Part shown: piece by piece, positions 19,068 to 51,240 of the stretch | How positions within the stretch are numbered: position 1 is the first letter of the stretch | Layout: each line of letters opens with the position of its first letter | Source: Sabellastarte sp. h YS-2021 | Lineage: Eukaryota > Annelida > Polychaeta > Sabellida > Sabellidae | NCBI GenBank assembly: GCA_964017235.1 | Contig: OZ024934.1 | Span: 87,882,706-87,946,705, forward strand | Direction of reading: 5' to 3' | Length of the DNA stretch: 64,000 nt | Made by a program: the position numbers and the translations under genes | The notes under the pieces: generated by a model | What the model saw: only the letters and a program-made list of their open reading frames with translations | Told to the model about the DNA's origin: nothing | The model's database searches: none

Positions 19068-22000
19068 CTTTTAAAAGAAAAAAAATGCTTTAGTTGATTT
19101 TACAGGAAAATTTCCCAAATGACACGTACATAAAAAGTATATCATGAATAAAGATAACAATATTACACGCGTGCATAGCACGACCATTATTATAGTGTTA
19201 ATCTTGATGAGTGATAGCTTTTTTTTTCTGTATATGTCCAATGAGGGATGTTTTTACTTTTATTATCCACCATTTTGTAGATTTATGACTTAACTAAATA
19301 GGTACTTATTGAGACTAAGTAGCCATGATCGGGAATCGCCATTATATATAAAAAAGATATATCCTGCTCTGTATATGGCCCTATATAGATGATATTTGGC
19401 TTTTGGCGGATACTAAAATGAAATATATAATGACTGATGTTATCAAATAGAAGAAAGTGAATGCTTAGTTTAAAATATGAAAAATATCTAGACTAAATGT
19501 TACTACAATATGTGAGGCCAAATATTCGTTTTGTTTATTCTGAAATTCAGTCTTATGTTAACTCGACTGGCCTCAAATTTTTGGCAAATTATGATGTAAG
19601 GCAGATGTAGTTACCTTGAAGCAGACTTTCTGAGGTACATATGCTAAATCTGATCACCTATCTATGGTACTTATTATAGAAAGATTTAACATATATAATT
19701 CATGTACTAAATGCTCTCTTTGGATCAATGAAGACTGCAAAAGCACTCTACTTCTATATTGCAAACAAAATTAAATAAATGTCAACGTAGATAGATGCCG
19801 TACTTTACCTGAAAGCCAAATGAAACGTATGATGTTAACTGGTGTAGTCAACACAATGTAGGCAAATGTCACAGTGAGTAACAAAGCCACAATATCCTGA
19901 AAAAAAACGGAAATAGGTACACACATATACTTCTGGAAAAAGCTAGTGTCAATATGTACGTACTTCCTTTTCAACACAATAACCCACAAAATGCTTTTAA
20001 AATAATATACAATGGATATTTTAGTGAGTGAATGAGATGAGTGCATTCTAGTTGGTCAAGACACAGCACCACCAAAGTACCACCAACTTCCTCTGTTCAG
20101 GTTGGGCCAGAACTCGAAGCCAGGACCTGACAGATTAGGGGTCAGGTCATGTGAAAACTCAACAAATAGAAAATAGTCAATTTATTATATTTTTCACATA
20201 AGAACTTTTAAATAAGACAGTTGATTTAAATATATCCACCATATGTAATATAACATGGAATATACCATTAAAATTTTATGTAAAGGACATAAATGTTGAC
20301 GTATTAGAAATAGCTTAATACTGTGTCAGTTTCTCTACGTCCACTGTTTTGCCTGCGGTTCCATGTTATTGCCCGTCTCACCAACACAGTTATGATTGAA
20401 AAATTAAATATTATCATTGCTACACCTGGAAACGCAGCCAATACCAAAGAAAAGCCATATCGTATCTTGGCAAATAAATCAAAACCTGAAAGGTGGCAAA
20501 TTAGTCCATCCGGTGTAAGATTCAGAAATGTTATGTCATTTATAAGAAATAGGATCGGGACAACAACACAAATGGCAAGAATTTGAAGACGTAGTTTCTC
20601 AGAAATTAGACCTCTGTATCTCAATGGAAAACAGATAGCGATGAATCTCTCACAAGAAAATGCCAGAAGTGAACATTTTGAAAAATCTGAAGAGAAATGA
20701 AAAAGGCAACAATGAACTTACAAGTCCAATCACTAATGTAACTAAGGTTTAGATCAAATGTCACTAAAAACCAGAGAACAAAGAACTGGTTCGACAATAT
20801 AAATAGCACATCAGCTAGTGTCATTGCTATTAGAAATATATTTCCAGTCATCTTTTGGCACTCTTTTCTGCAGAGCACTACAACTGCCAGCAGATTTCCT
20901 GGAATACCTAAGATGAGAAGAAAAATATTGTATACACGCACAAAAACTTTTACTTTGCCTTTAAATGTAAATTTAGATTGAAATGGTTGATCTGTGTCAG
21001 TTGTAAGGGAATCTGGATGCAGACTGATTTTAGTTTCGGTGTTGCTCTGCAGTGTTGTAGCAGGAATTTCTGTACTGGCTATCTTGTGATCTGTTGTTGT
21101 CCATGAGGATTCAATAGTCTTTAAACTTTCTAAGCCCGCACTACAAAATAAAAAAATAATATCATATATTCAAGTAGAATTCAAAGTATTTGTAGCTATT
21201 AACTGCAAGTAATATGACAGAGATTATTTGTCAACAATTTCCCATTTTTTTTCAAATTGTCAAGGCATGGTAATATAAAGTGTAATACTTCATAATTGAA
21301 TTCTGCAATCCTCTTTACAGGTTACAGGTCTTTACAGGTTTTAATTTTTTTGCTATAAATCACATGAAAGATTATATCATTAGTTTCAAATAATTCTTTC
21401 CACTTATTTTTTTGATATGCTGTCATTATTTTTGGTAAATAATGTTTCTATAAAAATATTTAGAACTCTTTACAGGTAAAGTGACATGATCATGAAGGCT
21501 AACATAGAGGGGGGTTGTTCTAGGAACATTTTAGATGGGATAAGGTTTCCTATTAACTTCTTATATTGGGCAAATATTTATTTTAATGTCATCAGTTGAC
21601 AGAATATATTCCTTTTATCTTTTGCTACCTTATAGATATAAAACTCATCCAATTAGCCATCCACAAACTTTAAGTCATCATCGAAAATAAAACCAGCTGC
21701 CAGCCATTCTTTAAAATACAGTCATTTCTATTTTCTTATACTGATCCCAGTATGTAAAGCTTCGATTTCCCCTTATAACTTGATTCAACAAAGTTGGTTT
21801 GTCGTGTGGTTTTGGACAAACAACCCTGATAAAAGGTAGGTAATGTTTCCATAATTAGAAATGTATCTACTTTATTAAATTTGAGCCTGATAATGTCGAA
21901 ATTTGATAATATATTAAAATAATCTTTACCTAGAGCAACCCAAGAGTCATTTGTATCTATAATTTTAGAAACCCATGAGGCCTTAAGTGCAAGTATATGT

Positions 22001-34624: not shown

Positions 34625-35151
34625 GTGCACCTATTTCTAAATTTTAATTTTTCGCTTTCATTGGTCATGCATTGCACTTTTTGGTTCTGTTTTTCCATCC
34701 TCTTGACTGTTCGGTCAACAACCCCCACCAAGGAAAATAGTTTGCCATCACCAAAAATTATTCACCCAAGTTTACTCTCCTCTTTGGACAGTTGCAACAT
34801 TGCTTTTGTCGCCTGCAGGCCCACTGTCGTCAAGTGACGCACTGTTTCAGAAATGTCAACCCTTGGTGGTCCATCATCCTGATTCTTTCTGGCGACATTA
34901 GTTTGAACCCAGGTCCATCAGCCAGAAATATCAAAGCCTGTCATCTGAATGTCCGTTCATTGCATTACTTTCATACCCTTAGGAACATACTTGACAAGCA
35001 TGCACCTGAACATGAATGTAAAACCCCACAACATGTCAACAAAGGGTTCATCAACAGTGAGATTTTGGCAGCAAAGAGACGTAAGCGCAAACTCGAAAGG
35101 GAGTGGCGAAAGGACAACTCTGCCATAAACCGCAGTAGGTATAGAGCCGCT
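34625..35151 (+). mobile_element. L2/CR1-like LINE, 5' part
   Basis: The open frame from about 34792 contains ILILSGDISLNPGPS, a 2A-like motif (GDxxxNPGP at 34891-34917), then KACHLNVRSLHYF, the first strand of the endonuclease. The frame jumps at once to NILDKHAP and INSEILAAKRRKRKLEREWR, the linker that normally follows the endonuclease. Most of the endonuclease is therefore deleted. The frame runs to RYRAA, where the 14-kb element is inserted, and resumes at 49263. Confidence 0.85.
35148..35151. repeat. Left target-site duplication CGCT
   Basis: CGCT directly precedes the left terminus and reappears at 49263-49266. Deleting the insert plus one copy gives an uninterrupted LINE frame (…YRAA/VNHFNRL…). 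Confidence 0.65.
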
Positions 35152-35291
35152 AAGCACTGTCAGATTTAAAAGGGAAAATCCAGACCTTTCCCTTTTAGAC
35201 CTTAAATTTCGCAATATGCAGGGTTTTGGTGCAAATATGGAAATTTCTTTCATGAAATATGGCAGTTTCATGCAAAAATTTGCACCATTTG
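35152..35291 (+). repeat. Left 140-bp terminal inverted repeat
   Basis: Matches the reverse complement of 49123-49262 at all 140 positions by eye. An internal AAAAGGGAAA…TTTCCCTTTT hairpin lies near the outer end. Confidence 0.95.
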
Positions 35292-35757
35292 GTGTGCCCT
35301 ATTCACGAAAACTGCAAATTTCCTCTTTTTGTAAATAGTGCGCACCCTAAACACGAAAACTGCAAATTTCCACTTTTTGTAAATAGGGTGTGCCCTAAAC
35401 ACAGAATCTGCAAATTTCATCTTTTTGTAAATAGGGTGCACCCTAAACACGAAAACAGCAAATTTCATCTTTTTGTAAATAGGGTGTGCCCTATACACGA
35501 AAACCGCAAATTTCCACTTTTTGTAAATAGGGTGTGCCCTAAACACAGAATCTGCAAATTTACTCTTTTTGTAAATAGGGTGCACCCTAAACACGAAAAC
35601 AGCAAATTTACTCTTTTTGTAAATAGGGTGCACCCTAAACACCAAAATTCATCTTTTTGTAAATAGGGTGCACCCTAAACATGGAAACTGTGAATTTCCT
35701 CTTTTTTGTATATAGGGTGTGCCCTAAATGCAGAAACTGTAAATTTCCTGTTCTTAG
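35292..35757. repeat. 48-bp satellite, left arm, about 10 units
   Basis: Each unit contains an AGGGTGCACCCT palindrome (or AGGGCACACCCT), then a Lys-rich-coding AT segment. A 48-base period keeps both strands open for 125-135 codons. The frames are repeat artefacts. Confidence 0.93.
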
Positions 35758-35769
35758 GCGGATTGGGTG

Positions 35770-36905
35770 TAACCAACCCATCTATTAGATGGATGTGTCT
35801 GACGTCCGTCAAAATTTCCGTTTCCGGACTCTAACTCGAAAACGGTTTGTCCAATCAAATTCAAACTTGGCAGGGAGATAGATCACCACCATAGCTAGGT
35901 TCCTTTCGAAATTAGTGTAATTTCGTCTGTTCCTTTGTCCATTTTTTGTCTGTCTGTCAGTCAAAATTTCCATTTCCGGACTCTAACTCGAAAACGGTTT
36001 GTCCAATCGAATTCAAACTTAACAGGGAGATACATCACCACCATAGCTAGGTTCCTTTTGAATTTGGTGTAATTCTGTCTGTTCGCTTGTCTGTTGTTTG
36101 TCCATTTTTCTGTTCATCAACATTTCTATTTCCGCACTCTAACTCGAAAATGCTGTGTCCAATCGAATTCAAACTTGACAGGGACACAGATCACCATCAT
36201 AGCTAGGTTCCTTTCGAAATTGGTGTAATTCCGTTTGTTCGTTTGTCCCTTTGTCTGTCTGTCCACATTTTTGTTTCCGGACTCTAACTAGAAAACGGTT
36301 TGTCCAATCGTATTCAAACTTGACAGGGACATAGATCACCATCATAGCTAGGTTCCTTTCGAAATTGGTGTATTTCCATCTGTTTGTGCGTCTGTTTTTT
36401 GATTGTCGGTCCGTCTGTCAAAATTTCCGTTTCCGGACTCTAACTCGAAAACGGTTTGTCCAATCGAATTCAAACTTGACAGGGAGATAGATCGCCACCA
36501 TAGCTAGGTTCCTTTTGAAATTAGTGTAATTCCGTCTGTTTGTTTGTCCGTTTTTTGTCTGTCAATCAAAATTTCCATTTCCGGATTCCAACTCAAAAAT
36601 GGTTTGTCCAATCGAATTCAAACATAATAGGGAGATACATCACCACCATAGCTAGGTTCCTTTCGAATTTGGTGTAATTCTGTCCGTTCGTTTGTCTGTT
36701 TTTTGTCCATTTATCTGTTCGTCAACATTGTTTCCGGACTCTAACTTGAAAACACTGTGTCCAATCAAATTCAAACTTGACAGGGAGATAGATCACCATC
36801 ATAGCTAGGTTCCTTTCGAAATTGGTGTAACTTTGTCTGTTCGTTTGTTCTTCAACATTTCCATTTCCAGACTCTACCTCGAAAACAGTTTGTCTTTACA
36901 CACAT
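35770..36905. repeat. Satellite of about 150 bp, 7-8 units
   Basis: GGACTCTAACTCGAAAACGG recurs near 35826, 35978, 36134, 36279, 36435, 36593, 36736 and 36869, followed by TTCAAACTTGACAGGGA and ATAGCTAGGTTCCTTT. The right arm keeps only part of one unit (48155-48235, inverted). Confidence 0.93.
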
Positions 36906-38000
36906 TTTCTTTCTCTTAGATGTTGTTTTCTCTACTTAACCATTATTTGGAGGTTTATATAACTGACACTGCTCTGAAAGTATCCAGATCTTTGCACTGT
37001 TTTATTACTCCTGTATCTCATGGTGTCGAAAACTATTCCCCCAGGCTATGGGGTACGGGCATCTCTGATACTATTTTTACCCCACAGCCCTTAAGGGTAG
37101 TCGTGGTATTGTTTTCACCCATGGTGTCTGGATGGGTGGGCAGGCGGTGGGAAAAAGTTTGTCCAGGCTGTATCTCAGAAACCATAAGCTGTAGGAAATT
37201 GATACTTTGGTAGGGACATTAATCAGGATGTGTAGGTGTGCAACGTCATGGTCTGACCTTGATTTGACCTATGACCTTGCCGCAGTGACCTTGAGTTTGA
37301 AAATCTTGTCCGGGCTGTATCTCGGAAACCGTAAGGTGTAGGTAGTTGATACTTAGTAGGGACACTGGTTAGGGGGTGTAGGTGTGCAGTGTCATGGTCT
37401 GACCTTGATTTGACCTTTGACCTTGCTGTAGTGACCTTGACCTATAAAATCTTGTCCGGGCTATATCTCGGAAACCATAAGGTGTAGGAAGTTGATACTT
37501 GGTAGGGACATATTGGTTGGGGGAAGTAGGTATGCAGCATCATGGTGTGACCTTGATTTAACCTTTGACCTTGTTGTAGTGACCTTGACCTAGAAAATCT
37601 TGTGGCGCCTTTGGATCTGTCTTTTGATGCAGATTAAGCACTGTTAAAGTCATATTAGAATTCATTAAGAATTTTACTTTTACAACTTCCCATTGTAACA
37701 GATGGAATTTCATCAAGTGAGCCACAGATTTTGCTACAACACCACACATAAGCATTCATTGAATGTATTACCACTTCTGTATGCATGGTAACATTCAAAA
37801 CATCTAAACCATAATTTGGCCATGCCAGATGTAGATAAAGGACATCCATTATCTTTCTCATAGACATTATTTTCTCTATTTAAACATTGTGTGGACCTTT
37901 ATACAAGTGACAGTTCTTTGTACTGATACAGTACTTCTATATCCCATGGTGATAAACATATTTCCCTAGGCTGTGGGGTACGGGCATCTCTGATGCTATT
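36905..38000. repeat. Left-arm extra block bounded by direct repeats, with 147-bp units
   Basis: Sequence at 36918-37085 (TTTTCTCTACTTAACCATT … GGGGTACGGGCATCTCTGAT) recurs at 37868-38005. Between them, about three units of 147 bp begin TTGTCCGGGCTGTATCTCGG (near 37159, 37306, 37452) and carry TGACCTTGATTTGACC. The right arm lacks this block. Confidence 0.85.
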
Positions 38001-38289
38001 TTTTTATTTACAAAGAAAAGGCTTTTAAGAATTACACTCAGCATTATAATATAAGCTTTAAAAATCAATTCTTAGCCATAAATATTAAGAATATGTAGGA
38101 AAAGTAATCTTTTTGATAAACTCCACTCAACAAGGAAAAATATACATGCTGATCAAAATATTGGCTCATGGAAAAACATAATAAAGGATATTGTATATCA
38201 AAAGTCAGCTATCCTCTGGTTTATGCTGCATCTTTTCACGCTTTTATGTAATTGGTGTAAATACACATACAACACTTTTTACAATCCCA

Positions 38290-39490
38290 GTCAGTCACTT
38301 TTTTATGTTTAGTTTGTACCAAAAAGCTAAAGGTTTAACATCTTAATATTAGGAATTGATCTTAAGAGCAATACGTATATGTTACTTTAAATAGGTGAAA
38401 CCATTAAATTTGCATATTTACCAAGATTTTGAGTAAAGGGGTGCATTTGCTGAATTGAATTAGCAAATACGCATATTTTTTTTTTTTTAAAAATCAGTAT
38501 TTTCTTAGTTAAATCTAAAATGCTTTTACTTATTTTATATTTTGATACATTTTATCTGCAAGATTTAATAAACCAAACATAGCTGGTCATTTTAGTATTT
38601 TACTTCATAAAATACACCAAATTTGTTTCAAATGAAATGTAAACTATCCTAATATTTACTACAAATGATTACATAAAACCCTGTAACTGATCACCATATA
38701 ACTAAATCTTACTTTCATAAATCTTGGTTTGTTGTTTGAAGGCTTCATGTCCTCAACTTGATCTGATGTTTCATGTGAAGTCACAATTACCTGATGGCCA
38801 CTGACTTTTAAGCACCAATCCATTATAATAGTATAATTTTTCACAGAGCTTCCATAATAAAAATGTATTTAAATTATTTCCAAAGAATGTGAGCAAAACT
38901 ACCTTGAACACTCAACTGTATCAAAACATATGACTTCTAATCCATCACACTTCACTACTCCTTGTATAGTGTAAACCAATTATCTGACTTTCAGTCTTAT
39001 CTTAATTGAGGTCACAGAGGGGGGAGAGACTGACCTATCTTGCCACTGAGAAAAATAAATATATATTGCTTGTGTAATTTGAGTGTGTGCCCCTTAATTT
39101 ATCTAGACTCTCTCTTGTAGGTATGTACAACATATCAGTGGGGTTTATCAGTCCAGCATGTATCTCTGACATTATAATGACCCCTTTACCCCACTGCACA
39201 CACTTGATTTACACAGTCTAGGAAAAAATCTTTGAGAATGGTGGTAGTTGAGTAAACATACAGGTACAAAATGAACACACACCCAAGTGAAATTTCTGTA
39301 ATGCCTTAATCCTGATTTTTTCTTACTTAAAATAAGTGACTCCAATACAATTTGAGACTTTTCTGGAAGTCTTAAATTTTAAAGATTTTACATTTTTACG
39401 TACAAATTGGACATATTTTCTGATGTCATGAGAAAAGGGTAAACTAAGTGAGAAAAAAATGTCTTGATAAGTTACAAGTCATGCACTTTC
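38290..39490. repeat. Left non-tandem arm of the big palindrome
   Basis: Aligns inverted with 46905-48130. For example, GGTATGTACAACATATCAGT then GGGGTTTATCAGTCCAGCAT near 39120 appears as the reverse complement near 47300. Divergence is visible, unlike at the terminal repeats. Confidence 0.9.
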
Positions 39491-40794
39491 CTTCATTTGT
39501 TTTACTTAATATATACTTTTAGTGCTTACTCTTGTTGGAGTATTAAATTTTGTATTACTCTTTGTATATTAAAGTTTGTATATCTGGAATAGAACATATT
39601 TGTAAAATGTATTCAGTCTCACTCAAAAGCAACCCCTAAAATTCTTGCCTTTCAAACACACCACTAATTTGGTTTTCTCTGAGCCTCATCTTAATTATCT
39701 GAAAGACTGGGATGAGATTTAAGTTTAAAAGCATGTATCTCTGGGAGAGGACACAAACACAAACCACAGTCCTAGGAATTATACCATCCCAACCCCTCAA
39801 ATTTGAGGGAGGGCTTATCTGCTCCCCCACTGCAAGTGTTTATGCTACCTGAAGACCATGCATTAATAGCCCATCATCTGCATGTGTCTTGAGGTTGTAA
39901 GTGACTACTCTCTCATTTAAAATGTGTTGCCAGTACTCGAAGAAAGCATGTATACTTATCAAACCCAAGCCACATTTACCTGTTGAATATATGCTTGTAA
40001 AAGAAGCATGTGTATACTGTTTCTATATTTTTCCTTCACTATAATTTAATGAAAGAGTCATATTTTATTGGTACATGCATTTATTATCTCCACCAAGAGG
40101 TATTGTTGTCATGACCGTTTGTCTTTCTGTTCGTCAGAAGGGTTACATAAATTCTACTGCATGGGTCACGTCTGACGTAGATCCTATTAAATTTTGACTG
40201 ATCTGGATCACTGGATACAAAATAATAATAATAAATAATAATAATCCAGAGACATGTTGTTACTTTTAAAAGATACCTTATCTAGCAAGAATGGTAAATT
40301 CTTCAAGGCATGCAGATTTGTCTGTTTGTCTGTTCTCCAGAGCCGCTAGATAAGAGGTACTCCCAGGAAAAGTGTGAAAATTTCAACTCTTTATCACAAT
40401 TTTCTCTTTGACCATTGAAGGGATTTCTCCCTATCTTAGATATATGTACTACGGCACAAGTAGATTCCCTTTTGTGAGTATCAGGCCTGGATATTTTTTA
40501 ATTAATTTTTTGTGAATTTTTAAAATAAGTTTGAATGCATTAAAAAAATTATGAATTTATGCAGTAAATCACGTATAACTTGAAAAGTATTGCACTCAGA
40601 GAATTATCTCTAAAAGTATTGCAAATGGCCAATTTTTCTCAAATAACTCGTTCACCTACTTTTGGGAGAGCTTTCACTCGGTGAAGTTTCAGACCTGTAG
40701 CTAATTATTCACCTACTCAAAATGAATAAATGCTAATTGTATCCACAGGATAGCATCCGGTGGATACTATGGATTTGACTTCGTTACGCCTACG

Positions 40795-40866
40795 CCGCCG
40801 CAGTGTGTAGAGAGATTTCACTGTTACCGCTCTAACGAAAAAAATATTATAGCTAGCCTTCTCAAA
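40795..40866. repeat. Inner inverted repeat, left copy
   Basis: GCCGCAGTGTGTAGAGAGAT then TTCACTGTTACCGCTCTAAC faces its reverse complement at 44232-44312. It brackets the 147-bp satellite block. Confidence 0.85.
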
Positions 40867-41114
40867 TTTACAGGATATATTCATAACCATAAAATCTTGC
40901 CCGGGAATATTTTTGGCCTCATTTTGAAAAACAAGATGGCCGCCGCAGGCGCTTTTCGACTTTAAACAAGGACTTTTGGTGGCTCTCTAGAGTAAAGGGT
41001 ATTATAGGTAGAGATCTCAAATTCGCAGGATATGTTCCTCATTATAAAATCTTGACTGGGAATATTTTTGGCCTCATTTTGAAAAACAAGATGGCCGCCA
41101 CAGGCGTTTCTTTG

Positions 41115-43310
41115 CAGTCATGAAAAGTGCTTATATCTCCCTTATTATTGGTCCTAGAGGTTTGGGATGGTAAACCAACCTGTAGGAAATCATGGCCTGG
41201 GAATCTTTTGGTGTGGTCAGATTTCACCTTGGACCCCTCCTTCAAGGTCAAACGAGGATAGCCAAACTTAAAAGTGCTTATAACTCGCTTATTATTGGTC
41301 CTACAGGTTTGGGATGGTAAACCAACCTCTAGGAAATCATGGGCTGGGAATCTTTTGGTGTGGTCGGATTTGACCTTGGACCCCTCCTTCAAGGTCAAAC
41401 GAGCATAGCCAAACTTAAAAGTGCTTATAACTCACTTGTTATTGGTCCTAGAGGTTTAGGATGGTAAACCAACCTATAGGAAATCATTGGCTGGTAGTCT
41501 TTTGGTGTGGTCGGATTTGACCTTGGACCCCTCCTTCAAGGTCAAACGAGGATAGGTAAACATAAAAGTGCTTATAACTCGCTTATTATTGGTCCTACAG
41601 GTTTGGGATGGTAAACCAACCTATAGGAAATCATTGGCTGGGAATCTTTTGGTGTGGTCGGATTTGACCTTTGACCCCTCCTTCAAGGTCAAATGAGGAT
41701 AGCCCAACTTAAAAGTGCTTATAACTCGCTTATTATAGGTCCTAGAGGTTGAGGATGGTAAACCAACCTATAGGAAATCATGGGCTGGGAGTCTTTTGGT
41801 GTGGTCGGATTTGACCTTGGACTCCTCCTTCAAGGTCAAACGAGGATAGGTAAACATAAAAGTGCTTATAACTCGCTTATTATTGGTTCTAGAGGTTTGG
41901 AATGGTAAACCAACCTATAGGAAATCATGGGCTGGGATTCTTTTGGTGTCATCAGATTTGACCTTTGAACCCTCCTACAAGGTCAAACGAGGATAGCCAA
42001 ACTTATACGTGCTTATAACTTGCTTATTATTGGTCCTAAAGGTTTGGGATGGTGAACCAACCTATAGGAAATCATGGTCTGGGAGTCTTTTGGTGTGGTT
42101 GGATTTGACCTTTGACCCCTCTTTCAAGGTCAAATGAGCATAGCCAAAATTAAGGGTCCTTATAACTCGCTTATTATTGGTCCTAGACGTTTGTGATGGT
42201 AAACCAACCTATAGGAAATCATGGGTTGGGAATCTTTTGGTGTGGTCGGATTTGACCTTGGACCCCTCCTTCAAGGTCAAACGAGCATAGCCAAACTTAA
42301 AAGTGCTTATAACTCGCTTTTTATTGGTCCTAGAGGTTTGGAATGGTAAACCAACCTATAGGAAATCATTGGCTGGGAATCTTTTGGTGTGGTGGGATTT
42401 GACCTTTGACCCCTTCTTCAAGGTCAAATGAGGATAGCCCAACTTAAAAGTGCTTATAACTCCCTTATTATTGGTCCTAGAGGTTTGGAATGGTAAACCA
42501 ACCTATAGGAAATCATTGCCTGGGAATCATTTGGTGTGGTCAGATTTGACCTTGGACCCCTCCTTCAAGGTCAAACAAGGATAGCCAAACTTAAAAGTGC
42601 TAATAACTCGCTTATTATTCGTCCTAGAGGTTTGGGATGGTAAACCAACCTCTAGGAAATCATTGGCTAGGAATCTTTTGATGTGATCGGATTTGACCTT
42701 GGACCCCTCCTTCAAGGTCAAACGAGGATAGCCTAACTTAAAAGTGCTTATAACTCACTTATTATTGGTCCTAGAGGTTGAGGATGGTAAACCAACCTAT
42801 AGGAAATAATGGGCTGGGAGTCTTTTGGTGTGGTCGGATTTGACCTTGGGCCTCCTTCAAGGTCAAATGAGGATAGTGAAACTTAAAAGTGCTTATAACT
42901 GGCTTATTATTGGTCCTAGAGGTTTGGGATGGTAAACCAAGCTATAGGAAATCATTGGCTGGGAATTTTGTGGTGTGGTCGGATTTGACCTTGGACCCCT
43001 CCTTCAAAGTCGAATGAGGATAGCCAAACTTAAAAGTGCTTATAACTCGATTAATATTGGTTCTACAGGTTTGCAATGTCAAATCAACCTATAGGAAATC
43101 ATGGGCTGGGAATTTTTTGATGTGATCAAATTTGACCTTTGGCCCCTCTTTCAAGGTCAAATGAGGATAGTGAAAATTAACAGTGCTTATCTCACTTATT
43201 CGTGTTCCTAGAGGTTTGCAATGTCACACCAACCTATAGGAATCATGGGCTAAGAATCTTTTGATATGGTCAGAAACTTCACCTTGGGCTTCTCCAAGGT
43301 TAAGCATGTT
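41115..43310. repeat. 147-bp satellite, about 15 units
   Basis: Each unit reads AAAAGTGCTTATAACTCGCT, TATTATTGGTCCTAGAGGTT, GGTAAACCAACCTATAGGAA, then TTTTGGTGTGGTCGGATTTG and a CTCCTTCAAGGTCAAACGAG end. Two inverted, more diverged units occur at 46180-46480. Antisense frames of 64-118 codons across the array are artefacts. Confidence 0.95.
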
Positions 43311-43364
43311 TTAATGGCTGTTGTAAGTTTTCTGGTGGATACAATTTGCATCGGTTCTCCGATG

Positions 43365-44170
43365 CGATAGGTCTAGTTATCTATAAAAGTATTGCGGATA
43401 CCCAATTTTTACCAAATAAGTCCTTCACCTACTTTTGGGAGAGCTTTCACTTGGTGAAGTTTCAGACACGTACCTAATTACTCACCTACTCAAAATGACT
43501 AAATGCAAATTATCTCTAAAAGTATTGCAGATATCCAATTTTTCTCAAATAACTCATTCATCTACTTTTGGGAGAGCTTTCACTTGGTGAAGTTTCAGAC
43601 CCGTAGGTAATTACTCACCTACTGAAAATGAGTAAATTCGAATTATCTCAAAAAGTATTGAAACATTGAGACAGTGAAAGCTCTCCCAAAAGTAGGTGAA
43701 GGAGTTATTTGGCAAAAATTGGCTATCTGCAATACTTTTAGAGATAATTTGCATTTACTCATTTTGAGTAGGTGAGTAATTAGCTACGGGTCTGAAACTT
43801 CACCAAGTGAAAGCTCTCCCAAAAGTAGGTGAAGGAGTTATTTGACAAAAATTGGCTATCTGCAATACTTTTAGAGATAATTTGCATTTAGTCATTTTGA
43901 GTAGGTGAGTAATTAGGTACTGGTCTGAAACTTCACCAAGTGAAAGCTCTCCCAAAAGTAGGTGAATGAGTTATTTCAGAAAAATTGGCTATGTGCAATA
44001 CTTTTGCAGATAATTCGCATTTACTCGTTTTGAGTAGGTGAGTAATTACCTACAGGTCTGGAACTTCAGCATGCGAAAGCTCTCCAAAAAGTACGTGAAT
44101 GAGTTATTTAAGAAAAATTTGTTATCTGCAATACTTTTAGAGAAAATGCAAAATTACTCATTTCAGTAGG
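43365..44170. repeat. 133-bp satellite that reverses direction at about 43665
   Basis: Two and a bit forward units (AAAAGTATTGC near 43385, 43518, 43651) are followed by about four inverted units (GCAATACTTTTAGAGA near 43729, 43862, 43996, 44128). The junction makes a long near-perfect palindrome. Confidence 0.92.
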
Positions 44171-44319
44171 CCTAATTCAGACATAAAGCCTACCAATAGA
44201 ATACTGTGGTGCACCCTCTAATATACCTTGCAAACTTGAGAACGCTAGCTATAATATTTTTTCGTTAGAGCGGTAATGGTGAAATCTCTCTACACACTGC
44301 GGCTATCCAGTGGATACAG

Positions 44320-45780
44320 TGATTTACTCAACAGTGAGAACCTGAAAGTAGATATTGGTAAGCTATGCCATGACATAGAGGTCTGCAATTTCACTCTGTT
44401 ATAGCTGACCAAAAATTATGTGAATAACATATTTAAAGAAAATACTGTAAATGCAATAGTTTTTAAGTTACAACTGATTTACTCAATAGTGAGAACCTGA
44501 AAATAGCTATTGCTCAGCTACGCCATGAGCTATAAGTCTGTAATTTCACGATGTAATAGCCGACCCAAAAGTAGGTGAACAACATATTTTAACAAAATAC
44601 TCCAAATGCAATATTTTTCAAGCTACAAGTCATTTACTCAACAGTCAGTACCTGAAAATAGCTATTGCTCAGTTGTGCCATGAGCTACAGGTCTGTAATT
44701 TCACTATGTTATAGCTGACCAAAAAGTAGCTGAATAACATATTTACACCAATTTCTATAAATGCAATAGTTTTCCAATTACAACTGATTTACTCAACAGT
44801 GTGAACTTCAAAGTAGCTATTACTCAGCTATGCAATGAGCCACAGGTCTGGAACTTCACTATGTAATATAGCTGACTCGAAAATAGGTGAATAACATATT
44901 GAAACAAAATACTCTAAATGCAATACTTTTCAAGTTATAAGTAATTCACTCAACAGTGATAACCTAAAAGTAGCTATTACTCAGCTATGCCATGAGCTAC
45001 AGGTCTGAAATTTTACTATGTTATAGCTGACCCAAAAGTAGCTGAATAACATATATATATATATGAAATTCTGTAAATGCAATAGTTTTCAAGTTACAAC
45101 TGATTTACTCAACAGTGTGAACTTCAAAGTAGCTATTACTCAGCTATGCAATGAGCCACAGGTCTGGAACTTCACTATGTTATAGCTGACTCCGAAATAG
45201 GTGAATAACATATTGAAACAAATACTCTAAATGCAATACTTTTGAAGTTATAAGTAATTTACTCAACAGTGATAACCTAAAAGTAGCTATCACTCAGCTA
45301 TGCCATGAGCTACAGGTCTGGAACTTCACTATGTTATAGCTGACTCCGAAATAGGTGAATAACATATGAAACAAAATACTGTAAATGCAATACTTTTGAA
45401 ATTATAAGTAATTTACTCAACAGTGATAACCTAAAAGTAGCTATTACTCAGCTATGCCATGAGCTACCGGTCTGAAATTTTACTATGTTATAGCTGACCC
45501 AAAAGTAGCTGAATAACATATTTATACGAAATTCTGTAAATGCAATAGTTTTCAAGTTACAAGTGATTTTACTCATGATGGAAGTTACTGAAAAGTCCAA
45601 AAGTAGCTATTACTCACTTAGCTATTGAGACAGACACCCAAGTTACTCACCATGTTGTAGCTATGAAAAAAGTAGCTGAATAACATATTTTAACAAAATG
45701 CTCTAAACGCAACACTTTTCAAGTTATAAGTGATTTAGTGCATGATTTCATGAATTTTAATGCATTTTAGACATTTTTGT
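44320..45780. repeat. Satellite of about 155 bp, about nine units
   Basis: Units carry TGATTTACTCAACAGTG, TAGCTATTACTCAGCTATGC, CATGAGCTACAGGTCTG and AAATGCAATAGTTTTCAAGT. The order of motifs shows distant relation to the inverted 133-bp family next to it. Confidence 0.9.
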
Positions 45781-46080
45781 CTACCACAGGTCTAATTTAG
45801 ACATAAAGCCTACCAAAAAGATAGGGTGGCGAGTCCTCTAGCATACCTAGCCACCTGCCAAATATGAAAGAAATCTGGAAAGAAATGTGGACTGTAGGTT
45901 GCTAACAAGCAATATTCCACATTTTAGACATTTTTGTCTACCACAGGCCTAATTTAGACATAAACCCTACCAAAAAGATAGGGTGGCGAGTCCTCTACCA
46001 TGTCAAGCCACCTGCCAAATATGAAAGAAATCTGGAAAGAAATGTGGACTGTAGGTCACTAACAAGAAATCTCTGCGGAC
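45760..46080. repeat. Two-copy direct repeat of about 135 bp
   Basis: ACATTTTTGTCTACCACAGG, then AGATAGGGTGGCGAGTCCTC and CACCTGCCAAATATGAAAGA, occurs at about 45770-45910 and 45925-46065. Confidence 0.85.
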
Positions 46081-46179
46081 GAGGGCGCGGACGACGACGA
46101 TGATGAATCCATAGTATCCCCGCTTTGCGTCGGGGATACAACTATATCCACCAGAAAGAAAACTCACCAAAGCCAATCG

Positions 46180-46480
46180 ACTATAGCTTAACCTTGAAGG
46201 AAGGTTAAATCTGACCACCTCAAAAGATTTGTTAGCCTATAATTTCCCATAGGTTATTGTCACATTGTATACCTCTAGGAACAAGAATAAGCGAGCAATA
46301 AGCACTTTTAATTTTGGTTATCCTCATTTTGACCTTGAAGGGGGGGCAAATCGAATCACATCAAAAGATTCCTAGCCCATGATTTCCTATAGGATGGTTT
46401 CACAGCACAAACCTCTAGGACTAAGAATAAGCGAGTTACAAGTACTTTAAAGTTTCGCTATCCTTGTTTCACCCTAAAGT
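46180..46480. repeat. Inverted 147-bp satellite units, right arm
   Basis: Two diverged reverse-orientation units of the 41115-43310 family (CCTCTAGGACTAAGAATAAG, TTTCCTATAGGATGG). Confidence 0.8.
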
Positions 46481-46904
46481 ATGGGTATGAAGTGAAGCAC
46501 TTCAAAGGTTGTCACTTATCTCTTTCCCCTTGTGTGTTTAACTCTAATAACATTCGATAAATATTTCAATGTGTTATATTAACATTTTGAAAATAGGTCT
46601 AAAATAGTGATATGGAGACTGGAGTAGTGGACAAATCAATTTGGAAAAACACTTTTTCAGTACCATGACCCCTCTCAAAATTGTGATTTTTATATCCCTT
46701 TCAAAAGCCAGGATTGTCAGTTATGGGAATTGAACCCACCCAGAGTTGTGACCAAGCAAAAAGGCACACTATTGTACATTTGCCATGGTTTTGTTGTAAA
46801 TGTATTGGGAAGGGTTGGATGTAAGTGAATATGTAGCTGATTTAATTGTATTTTGAAGTGATTTTTTTAAGTTTAAGGATAATTTTGTTTGAAAAGATTG
46901 AAAT

Positions 46905-48130
46905 TTGCAACTGAAGGAAAGTGCATGACTTGTAACTTATCAAGATATTTTTTTCTCGCTTAGTTTACCCTTTTCACATGACATTAGAAAATATGTCCAA
47001 TTAGTACATTAAATTGCAAACTCTTTAAAATTTGAGACTTCCAGAAAAGTCTCAAATTGGATTGGAGTCACTTATTTTAAGTAAAAAAAAATCAAAAAAA
47101 AATCAGGATTCAGGCTTTACAGAAATATTTCACTTGGGTGTGTGTTCATTTTGTGGCTGTATGTTTACTCAACTACCACCATTCTCAAAGACTTCTTTCC
47201 ATGACTGTGTAAATCAAGTGTGTGCAGTGGGGTAAAGGGGGTCATTATAATGCCAGAGATACATGCTGGACTGATAAACCCCACTGATATGTTGTACATA
47301 CCTACAACAGAGAGCCTAGATAAACTAAGGGACACCCACTCAAATTACACAACTTGCAACATATATTTATTTTTCTCAGTGGCAAGATAGGTCAGACTCT
47401 TACCCCACTGTGACCTCAATTAAGATAAGACTGAAAGTCAGATAATGGGTTTACATTATACAAGAAGGAGTAGTGAAGTGTGGTGGATTAGCAGTCATAT
47501 GTTTTGATACAGTTGAGTGTTCAAGGTGTTTTGTGTGTTTTGCTCACATTTTTTGGAAATGATTTAAATACATTTTTATTATGGAAGCTCTGTGAAAAAT
47601 TAGACTACTATAATGGATTCAATTTGGTGCTTCAAAGTCAGTGGCCAACAGGTAATTGTGACTTCATATGAAACATCAGATCAAGTTGAGGACATAATGC
47701 CTTCAAACAACAAACCAAGATTTATGAAAATAAGATTTAGTTATACCATTTTTTGGTGATGAGTTACAGGGTTTAATGTAATCATTTGTAGTACATATTA
47801 GCATAGTTTACATTTCATTTGAAACAAATTTGGTCTATTTTATGAAGTAAAATACTAAAATGTCTAGCTAGGTTTGGTTTATTAAATCTTGCAGATAAAT
47901 GTATGCATCAAAAAATAAGCATTTTAGATTTAACTAAGAAAATATTGATTTTTTTAAAACAAAAATATGCATATTTGCTTATCAATTCAGCAAATGCACC
48001 CCTTTACTCAAAATCTTAGTAAATATGCAAATTTGCTGGTTTCACCTATTTACTGTAACATACATGTATTGCTGTTAAGATCAATTTCCAATATTAAGAT
48101 GTTAAACCTTTAGCATTTTGCTACAAACTA
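46905..48130. repeat. Right non-tandem arm of the big palindrome
   Basis: Reverse-complement partner of 38290-39490. Confidence 0.9.
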
Positions 48131-48284
48131 AACAAACTAATTACATGATCTGTGTCCCTGTCAAGTTTGAATTCGATTGGACAAAGCGTTTTCGAGTTAG
48201 AGTCCAGAAACAAAAAATGTGGACGGACTGACGGACGTCGGACACATCCATCTAATAGGCGGGTTGGTTACATGCAACCCACCT

Positions 48285-49045
48285 AAAAACAGGAAATTTA
48301 CAGTTTCTGTGTTTAGGGTGCACCCTATTTATAAAAAGAGTAAATTTGCTGTTTTCATGTTTAGGGTGCACCCTATTTACAAAAAGAGTAAATTTGCAGT
48401 TTCTGTGTTTAGGGCACACCCTATTTACAAAAAGTGGAAATTTGATGTTTTCGTGTTTAGGGTGCACCCTATTTATAAAAAGAGGAAATTTGCAGTTTTC
48501 GTGAATAGGGCACACCCTATTTACAAAAAGAGGAAATTTGCAGTTTCTGTGTTTAGGGCACATCCTATTTACAAAAAGATGAAATTTGCTGTTTTTGTGT
48601 TTAGGGTGCACCCTATTTACAAAAAAAGGAAATTTGCAGCTTCTCTGTTTAGGGCACACCCTATTTACAAAAAAGTGGAAATTTGCTGTTTTTGTGTTTA
48701 GGGTGCACCCTATTTACAAAAAGATGAAATTTGCAGTTTCCGTGTTTAGGGTGCACCCTATTTACAAAAAGAGGAAATTTGCAGTGTTTGTGAATAGGGC
48801 ACACCCTATTTACAAAAAGAGGAAATTCACAGTTTCCGTGTTTAGGGTGCACCCTATTTACAAAAAGATGAAATTTGCAGTTTCCGTGTTTAGGGCACAC
48901 CCTATTTACAAAAAGATGAAATTTGCAGTTTCCGTGTTTAGGGCACACCCTATTTACAAAAAGAGGAAATTTGCAGTTTTCGTGACTAGGGTACACCCTA
49001 TTTACAAAAAGATGAAATTGGCCATTTTCGTGATTAGGGTGCACC
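48285..49045. repeat. 48-bp satellite, right arm, about 16 units
   Basis: Inverted partner of 35292-35757 with more units. Unit variants TTAGGGTGCACCCTATTTAC and TTAGGGCACACCCTATTTAC alternate irregularly. Confidence 0.93.
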
Positions 49046-49122
49046 CTTTTTCCAGGTGGATATTTGCTGTTTTTCTGATGGCTTATTGAGTTTTTTCACT
49101 TACGTGATTTTGACAAATGTCT

Positions 49123-49262
49123 CAAATGGTGCAAATTTTTGCATGAAACTGCCATATTTCATGAAAGAAATTTCCATATTTGCACCAAAACCCTGCATAT
49201 TGCGAAATTTAAGGTCTAAAAGGGAAAGGTCTGGATTTTCCCTTTTAAATCTGACAGTGCTT
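49123..49262 (-). repeat. Right 140-bp terminal inverted repeat
   Basis: Reverse complement of 35152-35291 with no mismatch seen. CGCT follows at 49263. Confidence 0.95.
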
Positions 49263-51240
49263 CGCTGTGAACCATTTCAACCGTCTCGTGGAATGTGCAA
49301 AAACCAAACACTAGAGTGATATGGTTAGGGAAAATGAGGATAACCCCAAGGCCTTGTGGAATTCCATAAAGAAAGTCCTCCATAGATCACCAAAAATGGT
49401 ACTTCCAGATTATACCACCATGAACAGTCTAGTCAACACTTTCGGCAGGTATGTTGCAGACAAAATTGCTAAATTAAGATCTGGATTACTGTCTACTGAT
49501 GCCGATCCCCCTGTCTCAGGTTCCTACAAAAACAAGTTTGTTTCTTTCCGGACCATGTCAGAGGAAGAAGTCCTTAAAATCATAAAGTCCACACCAAATA
49601 AATCATGTGACTTGGATCCCATCCCAACATCATTGGTCCTTGAATGTATCAGTGTGCTCCTGACTCCTATTACAAATATTGTGAACTACTCTCTACAGGA
49701 TGGCAGTTTCCCATCCTGCTTTAAGACTGCACATGTTACACCCTTGTTGAAAAAAGGTGGTCTTGACAAGAATATTCTCAAGAATTATCGACCAGTGTTC
49801 AACCTCAGCTACATCTCCAAACTCATAGAGAAAGCTGTGGCTAAGCAGATAAATGAGCATATTGCTCACAAGGGTATATCTAACGAAAACCAGTCCGCAT
49901 ATAGAGCTTTTCACTCAACTAAAACGGCGTTGCTCAAAATACAAAATGACATTGCCACATCAATGGACAAGGGTGCAGCTGTTGGATTAGTCCTTTTGGA
50001 CTTATCTGCAGCTTTCGATACAATAGACCACTCAATCCTATTCAACTGCCTTCAGCACTGGTATGGCATTGATGGGGTAGTGCTTAAGTGGGTCCAGTCA
50101 TACCTCAACTCACGCAAGCAGCGCATCAAAATAGATGGACATCTTTCAGATGCTTTTCAACTCCCTTGCGGGGTTCCCCAGGGCTCAGTTCTAGGGCCAC
50201 TCCTTTTTACCCTATACACAACCCCTCTCAGTTCAGTCATATCTAAATTCAATGTCACCCACCACTTATATGCAGATGACACACAAATTTACTTGGAACT
50301 CGACTCTAGGAACTTCGATTCCAGTATCACTGAATTAACAAATTGCCTTGAGGTGGTCCAGGCTTGGATGGGAAATAATAAGCTTAAATTAAATCCTGAC
50401 AAGACAGAATTCATAGTGATTGGTGATGATCAAATTAGAAGTTCCCTGAAGTCATCTTTCCCAGTGAGTTTGCTTGGCAACACCATGAAACCAGCTGAAT
50501 CGGTAAAAAACCTTGGTGTCATCCTGGATGCTGAAAATTCAATGCAAAGACACGTGGCTAATCTATGTCGCATAAGTTACTACCATCTCCGGGAACTACG
50601 AAGGGTCCGCAGGTACTTAAATCATGAAACAGCTGTTAAGGTGGCAAATGCCTTGGTAAGCAGTCGTCTGGATTACTGTAACTCACTGCTTTACAACACA
50701 AAAAAGGCATATACTAGCAGACTACAGAGAGTTCAAAATGCCTTATGTCGGACGGTGTGCAAGCTAAATAAATGCCGATGTTACACCCTTCCTGCACAAA
50801 CTACACTGGCTCCCCATTCATTACCGTATACTGTTCAAATATAATCTCCTCATTTATAAAGCAATACATTTGAGCCAACCTCCATATCTCTCCGCTCTAA
50901 TTAGGCGGAGTGATCTCACACGGGGCAATCGCCTATCAATTTCCTCATCTAAACCAAATAAACGCTCAGGGCTACGCAGTTTCATAGCAGGGGCTCCCAC
51001 AGAGTGGAACAAGCTTCCTCAAGCCATCAGAACCATAGAAAGCATTTCTGGTTTCAGGAAACAGTTGAAAACATACCTTTTTAGATTGGCTTATCCTCCA
51101 CCATAGCCTATCTCCCCTACCGGACGCTAATATGGAAACGGACATCTTTCTGGAACTGGACTATCCCTTTTTGCACATCAGCGCCTTAGAGGATGTTTAC
51201 ATCAAATTCGGCGCTATATAAGTGTTTCTTACTTACTTAC
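49263..51240 (+). mobile_element. L2/CR1-like LINE, 3' part with reverse transcriptase
   Basis: After VNHFNRLVECAKTKH the frame has a stop at 49314, then runs from 49321 for 507 codons. RT motifs include FKTAHVTPLLKKG, LDLSAAFDTIDHSIL, CGVPQGSVLGPLLFTLYTTP and LYADDTQIYL, with catalytic aspartates intact. The C-terminal LVSSRLDYCNSLL follows. A frameshift near 50775 separates the last part (SAYRIL-type frame, then LSALIRRSDLTRGN … [17 protein letters not shown] and stop at 51106). A short 3' UTR ends in (CTTA)n. The same 3' end is found truncated at 2942-3435. Confidence 0.92.

Follow-up and report, generated by a model that had tools for sequence, protein, structure and literature searches.

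Satellite arrays inside a 14.1-kb element of Sabellastarte sp.: very probably a non-autonomous copy of a giant foldback-type transposon family

Background

By what routes satellites reach new positions on chromosomes has long been asked, and foldback elements and Helentrons are each known singly as carriers. Foldback elements possess inverted repeats with tandem sub-repeats, most of their copies are non-coding, and the P-type Galileo produces a duplication of about 7 bp. Here we analyse a stretch of 64,000 bp from the annelid Sabellastarte sp. h YS-2021 (contig OZ024934.1, positions 87,882,706 to 87,946,705; "the window" below), in which an element of 14111 bp interrupts a long interspersed nuclear element (LINE). 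This is very probably a non-autonomous copy of a giant foldback-type DNA transposon family, inserted in the LINE with a 4-bp duplication. Positions are those of the window unless prefixed with a contig (C1, C2, C6 etc.) or another locus.

Published descriptions give the following picture. Tetris, from Drosophila virilis, has terminal inverted repeats (TIRs) with an outer flanking domain, a tandem-repeat array and an inner domain; its TIRs reach 1.7 kb, contain one 220-bp repeat type and are associated with duplications of 8-10 bp, and it has been proposed to be Mutator-like (Dias et al. 2014, PMC4079207). The same source names the foldback elements FB, Galileo and TU. A precedent for cargo is the composite Ising transposable element, which lies between foldback transposons (PMC6431247). 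The Cg_HINE elements of the Pacific oyster are non-autonomous Helentrons with a 5' sub-terminal repeat and its complement, tandem repeats, a 3' repeat and a palindrome, and they insert at TT without duplication (PMC7492417). Our search of open-licence full-text literature, which could miss a species-specific report, found no account of the family described below, and no paper on a foldback element with tandem repeats in a mollusc.

Results and discussion

Ends, target site and the interrupted LINE

An earlier, sequence-only reading of the window had reported perfect 140-bp inverted termini with a CGCT duplication. Both hold: the two ends match at all 140 bp, and CGCT stands on either side (Table 1). 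The family's outer ends are AAGCACTGTCAG ends, and as single-stranded DNA the 140-bp end folds into two hairpins (z -3.4). The same reading had described a LINE frame that becomes continuous on removal of the insert and one CGCT. The rejoined frame is indeed in register (RYRAA joined to VNHFNRL...), but it hits an in-frame TAG after 15 further codons. Beyond this TAG the same frame matches RVT_1 (E 1.8e-36).

The empty site that had been suggested as a check was sought over the whole assembly (1.786 Gb, 647 contigs), using 200 + 200 bp of LINE flanks with one CGCT. There were 715 first-look candidates and, as in each of our genome searches with many such candidates, 40 places were scored. All 40 cross the junction at 98-99% identity, with matched query and place equal in length in 39 and a 1-base difference in one.

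A family of outward-facing pairs

With the 140-bp end as query, 241 first-look candidates were obtained, and 39 of the 40 scored were 100% identical to it along all 140 bp. A pattern of its outermost 40 bases, with up to 3 mismatches allowed, occurs at 200 places in 1.79 Gb (97 forward, 103 reverse), and the reversed control pattern at 0 places. The pair count rests on 100 listed of these 200 end matches. Among them are 33 neighbouring pairs within 120 kb, 32 of which face outward, with lengths of 13,535-48,111 bp (median 21.8 kb); by end count this family of giant elements comprises about 100 copies. Both flanks were read for 30 of the 32 outward pairs, C8:2772355 and C19:71800843 being left out, and an exact 4-bp duplication was present in 20. 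Inverted pairs with 4-bp duplications, whose absence would have refuted the sequence-only reading, are thus found at many loci. In a 21-pair subset, 12 exact 4-bp duplications compare with a mean of 0.95 and a maximum of 6 over 20,000 random re-pairings. The duplicated bases are A/T-rich, without a fixed motif. In none of the 21 pairs does an exact duplication reach 5 bp, and the 8-10 bp duplication of a Tetris/Mutator-like element was not found.

Several hallmarks of foldback elements are present: long outward-paired TIRs around a variable middle, tandem sub-repeats within the inverted repeats, and a target site duplication of constant length (4 bp). Arrays of the 48-bp unit adjoin all 30 fetched ends, with 2 units only at L015.

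At six pairs we looked for an empty site in a neighbouring repeat unit, and two were clear. A 39-kb copy on C6 lies in a 316-bp array, where the neighbouring unit restores the joined site over 300 of 300 bases with no gap (96.7%). For a 16.5-kb copy on C3, located in a 157-bp satellite, the intact neighbour matches the joined site over 294 bases with one gap (90.8%). Copies sitting in tandem arrays were seen from the outer flanks of L002, L003, L005, L007, L008, L022/L023, L027, L028 and L030, the host arrays having units of 133, 141/169, 147/155, 157, 316, 351 and 381 bp. Insertion in such arrays may hint at a target preference or tolerance.

The ends are conserved better than the arms that follow them. 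In nine other elements, of which C2 alone was chosen by its arm and the other eight by their ends, the ends are 98.6-100% identical to those of the window copy. The arms of the six elements compared show 89-95% identity to the window copy, and in C2, found by an arm at 90-91%, the ends are still 99.3 and 98.6% identical. Thirty aligned ends were chosen as best matches, so their 140-bp identity is no evidence for conservation. We infer that the ends form a long recognition region, which would be kept by selection for mobility. Subfamilies of ends are separable mainly from about base 158 inward, and several pairs combine a AAGCACTG end with a AAGCACCG end.

Satellites carried as cargo

Within the element, a 147-bp satellite array sits in a genome-wide dispersed HINE/Helentron-like module, which is itself inserted in a 133-bp satellite. 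On its left side the module (40738-43376) has GTATCCAC and, 13 bp further on, its complement (GTATCCAC...GTGGATAC); the 147-bp array follows, and on the right side come GTGGATAC and then the palindrome GCATCGGTTCTCCGATGC. The sub-terminal repeat is 8 bp long. Joining 40601-40737 to about 43376 restores the 133-bp unit at TT (AAT joined to TAT), within 2 bases. The module thus shows the sub-terminal repeat, its complement, the 3' repeat with palindrome and the duplication-free TT insertion that are hallmarks of HINE/Helentron elements. A left-flank microsatellite was recognised neither by eye in 40738-41120 nor by Tandem Repeats Finder (TRF).

The limits of the module recur elsewhere in the genome. 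Its left flank gave 3866 first-look candidates, and all 40 scored are at least 95% identical. When the query was given extra flank, 36 of 40 places start at 40717-40736 (26 of these at 40733-40736); on the right, 35 of 40 stop at 43378-43385 (28 of these at 43378).

The case for satellites as cargo rests most firmly on a sister copy of 22.3 kb at C6:124105963-124128294, which was partly read and has TTGG/TTGT as its flanks. It is collinear with the window copy, in the opposite orientation, and spans both junctions of the nested module: the left at 94% over window 40560-41000, the right at 94.8% over window 43202-43566. In the other copies compared, the 133-bp arrays match from about 43373-43377 onward only. 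Since the sister copy has both nested junctions, the composite was copied as a whole; and since the two copies lie on different chromosome-sized contigs with different flanks, their shared ancestor already held the nested satellite module. The proposal of the sequence-only reading, that satellites can be moved as cargo of a foldback-type transposon, is borne out here. The satellites of the element are partly second-hand, having been brought by other mobile elements.

Architecture of the window element

The features of the element are collected in Table 1; its tandem arrays were called by TRF. The arrays occupy 7179 of the 14111 bp (51%) and inverted repeats 59-60%, so that the earlier descriptions "almost only tandem repeats" and "largely palindromic" went too far. 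Inward from the 140-bp ends the two-sided homology goes on through the 48-bp arrays and a non-tandem arm, whose left and right copies are 89% identical over 1240 bp. The mirror order claimed for the body therefore applies to the ends, the 48-bp arrays and the arm; it does not extend to the 150-bp array, which is present on the left only, nor to the centre, which consists of several modules, at least one of them a separate mobile element. Used as a query against the assembly, the right arm gave 400 first-look candidates, 40 of which were scored. The 133-bp array is itself an inverted duplication, and a strong hairpin, GTATCCCCGCTTTGCGTCGGGGATAC, lies at 46114-46139 on the edge of a reversed HINE-like remnant.

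Derivation of the repeat units from the TIR is unsupported: in a test with 300 shuffles, the 48-bp unit did not significantly resemble the 140-bp end (p 0.34) or a 211-bp end (p 0.07).

Outside the element, 20624-21169 (minus strand) holds a weak candidate for a rhodopsin-type receptor exon (7tm_1, E 4e-4, under Pfam's cut-off).

Table 1. Features of the element, its target site and related sequences in other copies
Feature	Position	Strand	Remarks
5' part of interrupted LINE	34741..35151	+	begins at open-frame start, not LINE start; last 4 bp are CGCT
Left target site duplication copy, CGCT	35148..35151		
Left TIR	35152..35291	+	140 bp, 100% identical to right end
Left 48-bp tandem array	35297..35749	+	9.6 copies
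150-156-bp tandem array	35809..36848	+	6.8 copies; left side only
146-bp tandem array	37159..37603	+	3 copies
Left non-tandem arm	38306..39499	+	inverted copy at 46908-48134
133-bp satellite unit split by nested HINE-like module	40601..40737	+	
Nested HINE/Helentron-like module	40738..43376	+	ends uncertain by few bp
147-bp tandem array within nested module	41123..43271	+	14.7 copies
133-bp satellite, two head-to-head arrays	43377..44147		43377-43660 and 43673-44147
155-bp tandem array	44318..45575	+	8.1 copies
157-bp tandem repeat	45763..46070	+	2 copies
Reversed remnant of second HINE-like module	46114..46486	-	hairpin 46114-46139 and about two 147-bp-like units
Right non-tandem arm	46908..48134	-	inverted copy of left arm
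Remnant of 150-bp repeat	about 48146..48257	-	<1 unit; sole right-side trace
Right 48-bp tandem array	48285..49051	-	16 copies
Right TIR	49123..49262	-	140 bp, perfect inverted match of left end
Right target site duplication copy, CGCT	49263..49266		
3' part of interrupted LINE	49267..50844	+	reverse transcriptase domain
Shared DIRS-like fragment (other copies)	L031:7200-10000, L036:1406-4787, L039:1837-4043, L043:7404-9733		
183-209-codon open reading frame (other copies)	L032:1535-2161, L041:8112-8738, L043:5443-5991		

Passengers in other copies

The interiors of about 12 of the roughly 100 copies were read, several of them partly, with cut-offs of 70 to 150 codons for open reading frames (ORFs); Pfam was run on a subset of these. 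What the scans recognised were reverse transcriptases of LINE and DIRS-like type, RNase H, tyrosine recombinase and the genes of the nested Polinton-like block. Two of the passengers we take to be Polinton/Maverick-like and DIRS-like, by the hallmarks of those groups. In the 39-kb copy (C6:356508-395783), ORFs match an adenovirus-type protease and a chromodomain-bearing integrase, and there is a weak match to a packaging ATPase. A Polinton/Maverick-like block at C6:362532-375962 (L034:6133 to L035:9563) is nested there in a 155-bp array and has 255-bp TIRs of its own (98.8%), starting AG, with a perfect 6-bp duplication, ATTGCA.

A degraded DIRS-like fragment, with tyrosine recombinase and gag-like parts, lies at the same place in four copies (E7a, E6a, E7b and E3) and was not found in the window copy or the 13.5-kb C6 copy. 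Its gag-like and recombinase ORFs are oppositely oriented, with no reverse transcriptase between them. The Pfam match of the recombinase ORF is weak (E 0.018), but an ORF of the 39-kb copy with a match to Phage_integrase (E 3.9e-5) shares 56% identity with it over 296 residues. The 23-kb, 39-kb and 48-kb copies carry domains of reverse transcriptase or RNase H. One further ORF is kept open in three copies (209 codons in E7a and E6b, 183 in E3); its scanned L032 copy had no Pfam match. Copies of a second subterminal type (two on C3, one on C19; partly read) contain arms, 133-bp arrays and a 321-bp array, and in the parts read no ORF exceeds 107 codons.

Proposed mechanism and the case against it

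Superfamilies with 4-bp duplications include Ginger, Sola1, Chapaev and Academ. To our knowledge, the existing foldback assignments (Mutator-like with 8-10 bp, P-like for Galileo) do not cover a 4-bp duplication at 13-48 kb. When the terminal 16 bases were searched for with any base but A after them, 2 places matched, one being a known copy, so that this search revealed no further family sharing the terminus. As the mechanism we propose that a DDE-type transposase, presumably supplied in trans, would bind the conserved 140-bp ends, excise or copy the whole segment and insert it at cuts staggered by 4 bp. All that lies between the ends would travel with it: the TIR-resident 48-bp and 150-bp arrays as well as satellites that arrived in other mobile elements, the putative bringers being the HINE-like element here and Polinton-like and DIRS-like elements in other copies. 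With the whole interior carried, the element would serve both as a landing pad and as a satellite vehicle. It is conceivable, though we rather doubt it, that this is a giants-only lineage with ends kept better than arms and with an unassigned transposase that makes the 4-bp duplications, a carrier in which satellites, HINEs, Polintons and DIRS elements gather and from which they are redistributed as one cargo; its tandem arrays might then be constitutive, for example as spacers or extra binding sites, and not junk. No TIR pair shorter than 13.5 kb occurs among the 32 pairs listed.

Several observations weigh against the interpretation as a transposon family with satellite cargo. No transposase was recognised in the ORF lists of the window and 24 loci, nor by Pfam on 20 ORFs of other copies. 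The first of these agrees with the sequence-only reading, which had recognised no transposition protein in the window; the autonomous relative with the same ends that it had suggested looking for was not found among the dozen or so copies read, several of them in part, of roughly 100. Six of the 30 pairs, including the sister copy (TTGG/TTGT), agree at 3 of 4 bases, and four at no more than 2. On C1, two neighbouring ends point the same way. They are 20 kb apart (C1:172133167-172153187), and the inner element seems to be without a left end, since a left-orientation 48-bp array begins about 180 bp after the first end. Four of the six pairs tested for neighbouring units had no clear intact unit, because their flanks are diverged or not tandem; for the 13.5-kb C6 copy the match was weak (75.9%), and three pairs, the window included, had no intact unit within 1.5 kb. 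Similar composites of 133-bp satellite and HINE are present at three places (C4:98.65 Mb, C3:31.2 Mb and C1:183.5 Mb) where none of the 100 listed ends lies within 100 kb, although diverged ends may be near them. In addition, at 10 of 40 places, for example C11:53960099 and C6:108543077, the final 43 bp of the module (from 43334) adjoin a 133-bp array, with no 147-bp array. From these composites and joins it follows that module and 133-bp satellite were paired earlier or more widely than in this family alone, and satellites spread by other routes too.

Alternative explanations

The insert might instead be a nested pile of independent satellite and HINE insertions in the LINE, with inverted ends that are accidental and no movement as a unit. 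The interior is indeed partly nested, with an inverted duplication in its 133-bp array, but this account would have to accommodate 200 ends, the listed ones in outward pairs with 4-bp duplications at many loci, an empty site exactly at the outer ends in 40/40 scored LINE copies, and a sister copy that shares the internal junctions and differs in its flanks; we regard it as extremely improbable. Movement as a unit could also be replaced by spread mainly through segmental duplication or ectopic recombination between foldback elements. Pairs matching at no more than 2 of 4 bases (4/30) look as if the ends of different copies had recombined, and the same-orientation neighbours would fit as well. 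Against this, the duplication differs from pair to pair in most of those read and the flanks, compared by eye, differ between the loci read, which makes such a history highly improbable as the main route.

Two other explanations look for the motor among the passengers. A Polinton/Maverick derivative mobilised by its integrase is suggested by the protease, integrase/chromodomain and weak packaging ATPase ORFs at C6:356508-395783. Such ORFs were seen neither in the window element nor in four other whole copies read, and the block that contains them owns its TIRs and its 6-bp duplication; membership of that group would place a 6-bp duplication and an integrase within the outer ends, whose duplication is 4 bp, and we assign the idea next to no probability. 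Tyrosine recombinases leave no target duplication. A DIRS-like recombinase as the agent that moves the family is consequently very unlikely, given the duplication in 20/30 pairs, even though recombinase and gag-like fragments share one place in four of the copies compared. The fragment was not found in the window copy or the 13.5-kb C6 copy, and the opposite orientation of its gag and recombinase parts, with no reverse transcriptase between, is as expected for a degraded insertion; the outer ends were accordingly not placed with DIRS/Ngaro elements.

Comparison with known systems

The transposon family with satellite cargo widens the range of foldback elements to sizes of 13-48 kb and to a duplication of 4 bp. 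It also reveals a second-order carrier, a TIR element moving satellite arrays that had arrived inside another mobile element, with both nested junctions kept in two copies on different chromosome-sized contigs. Polinton/Maverick and DIRS-like elements are passengers in other copies and not owners of the outer ends. Like foldback elements generally, the family has sub-repeated inverted repeats and carries whatever lies between two ends; it differs from them in duplication length, size and nested cargo.

Comparisons with Cg_HINE and Tetris are as follows. The module 40738-43376 shares the order of Cg_HINE and its duplication-free TT insertion; its sub-terminal repeat is 8 bp, unlike the 11-12 bp of Cg_HINE, and no microsatellite was recognised in it (PMC7492417). 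It further differs from Cg_HINE in lying inside a TIR transposon. The nearest described kind to the family as a whole are the Tetris-type foldback elements. Both have repeats in long TIRs and a variable middle, both are non-autonomous with no autonomous copy found, and both feed satellite DNA. Unlike Tetris, whose TIR-220 repeat is related to its own end, the present family has a 48-bp unit without significant similarity to the end, and it is distinguished by a 4-bp duplication, lengths of 13.5-48 kb, 48-bp and 150-bp arrays on the TIR side and further satellites at the centre.

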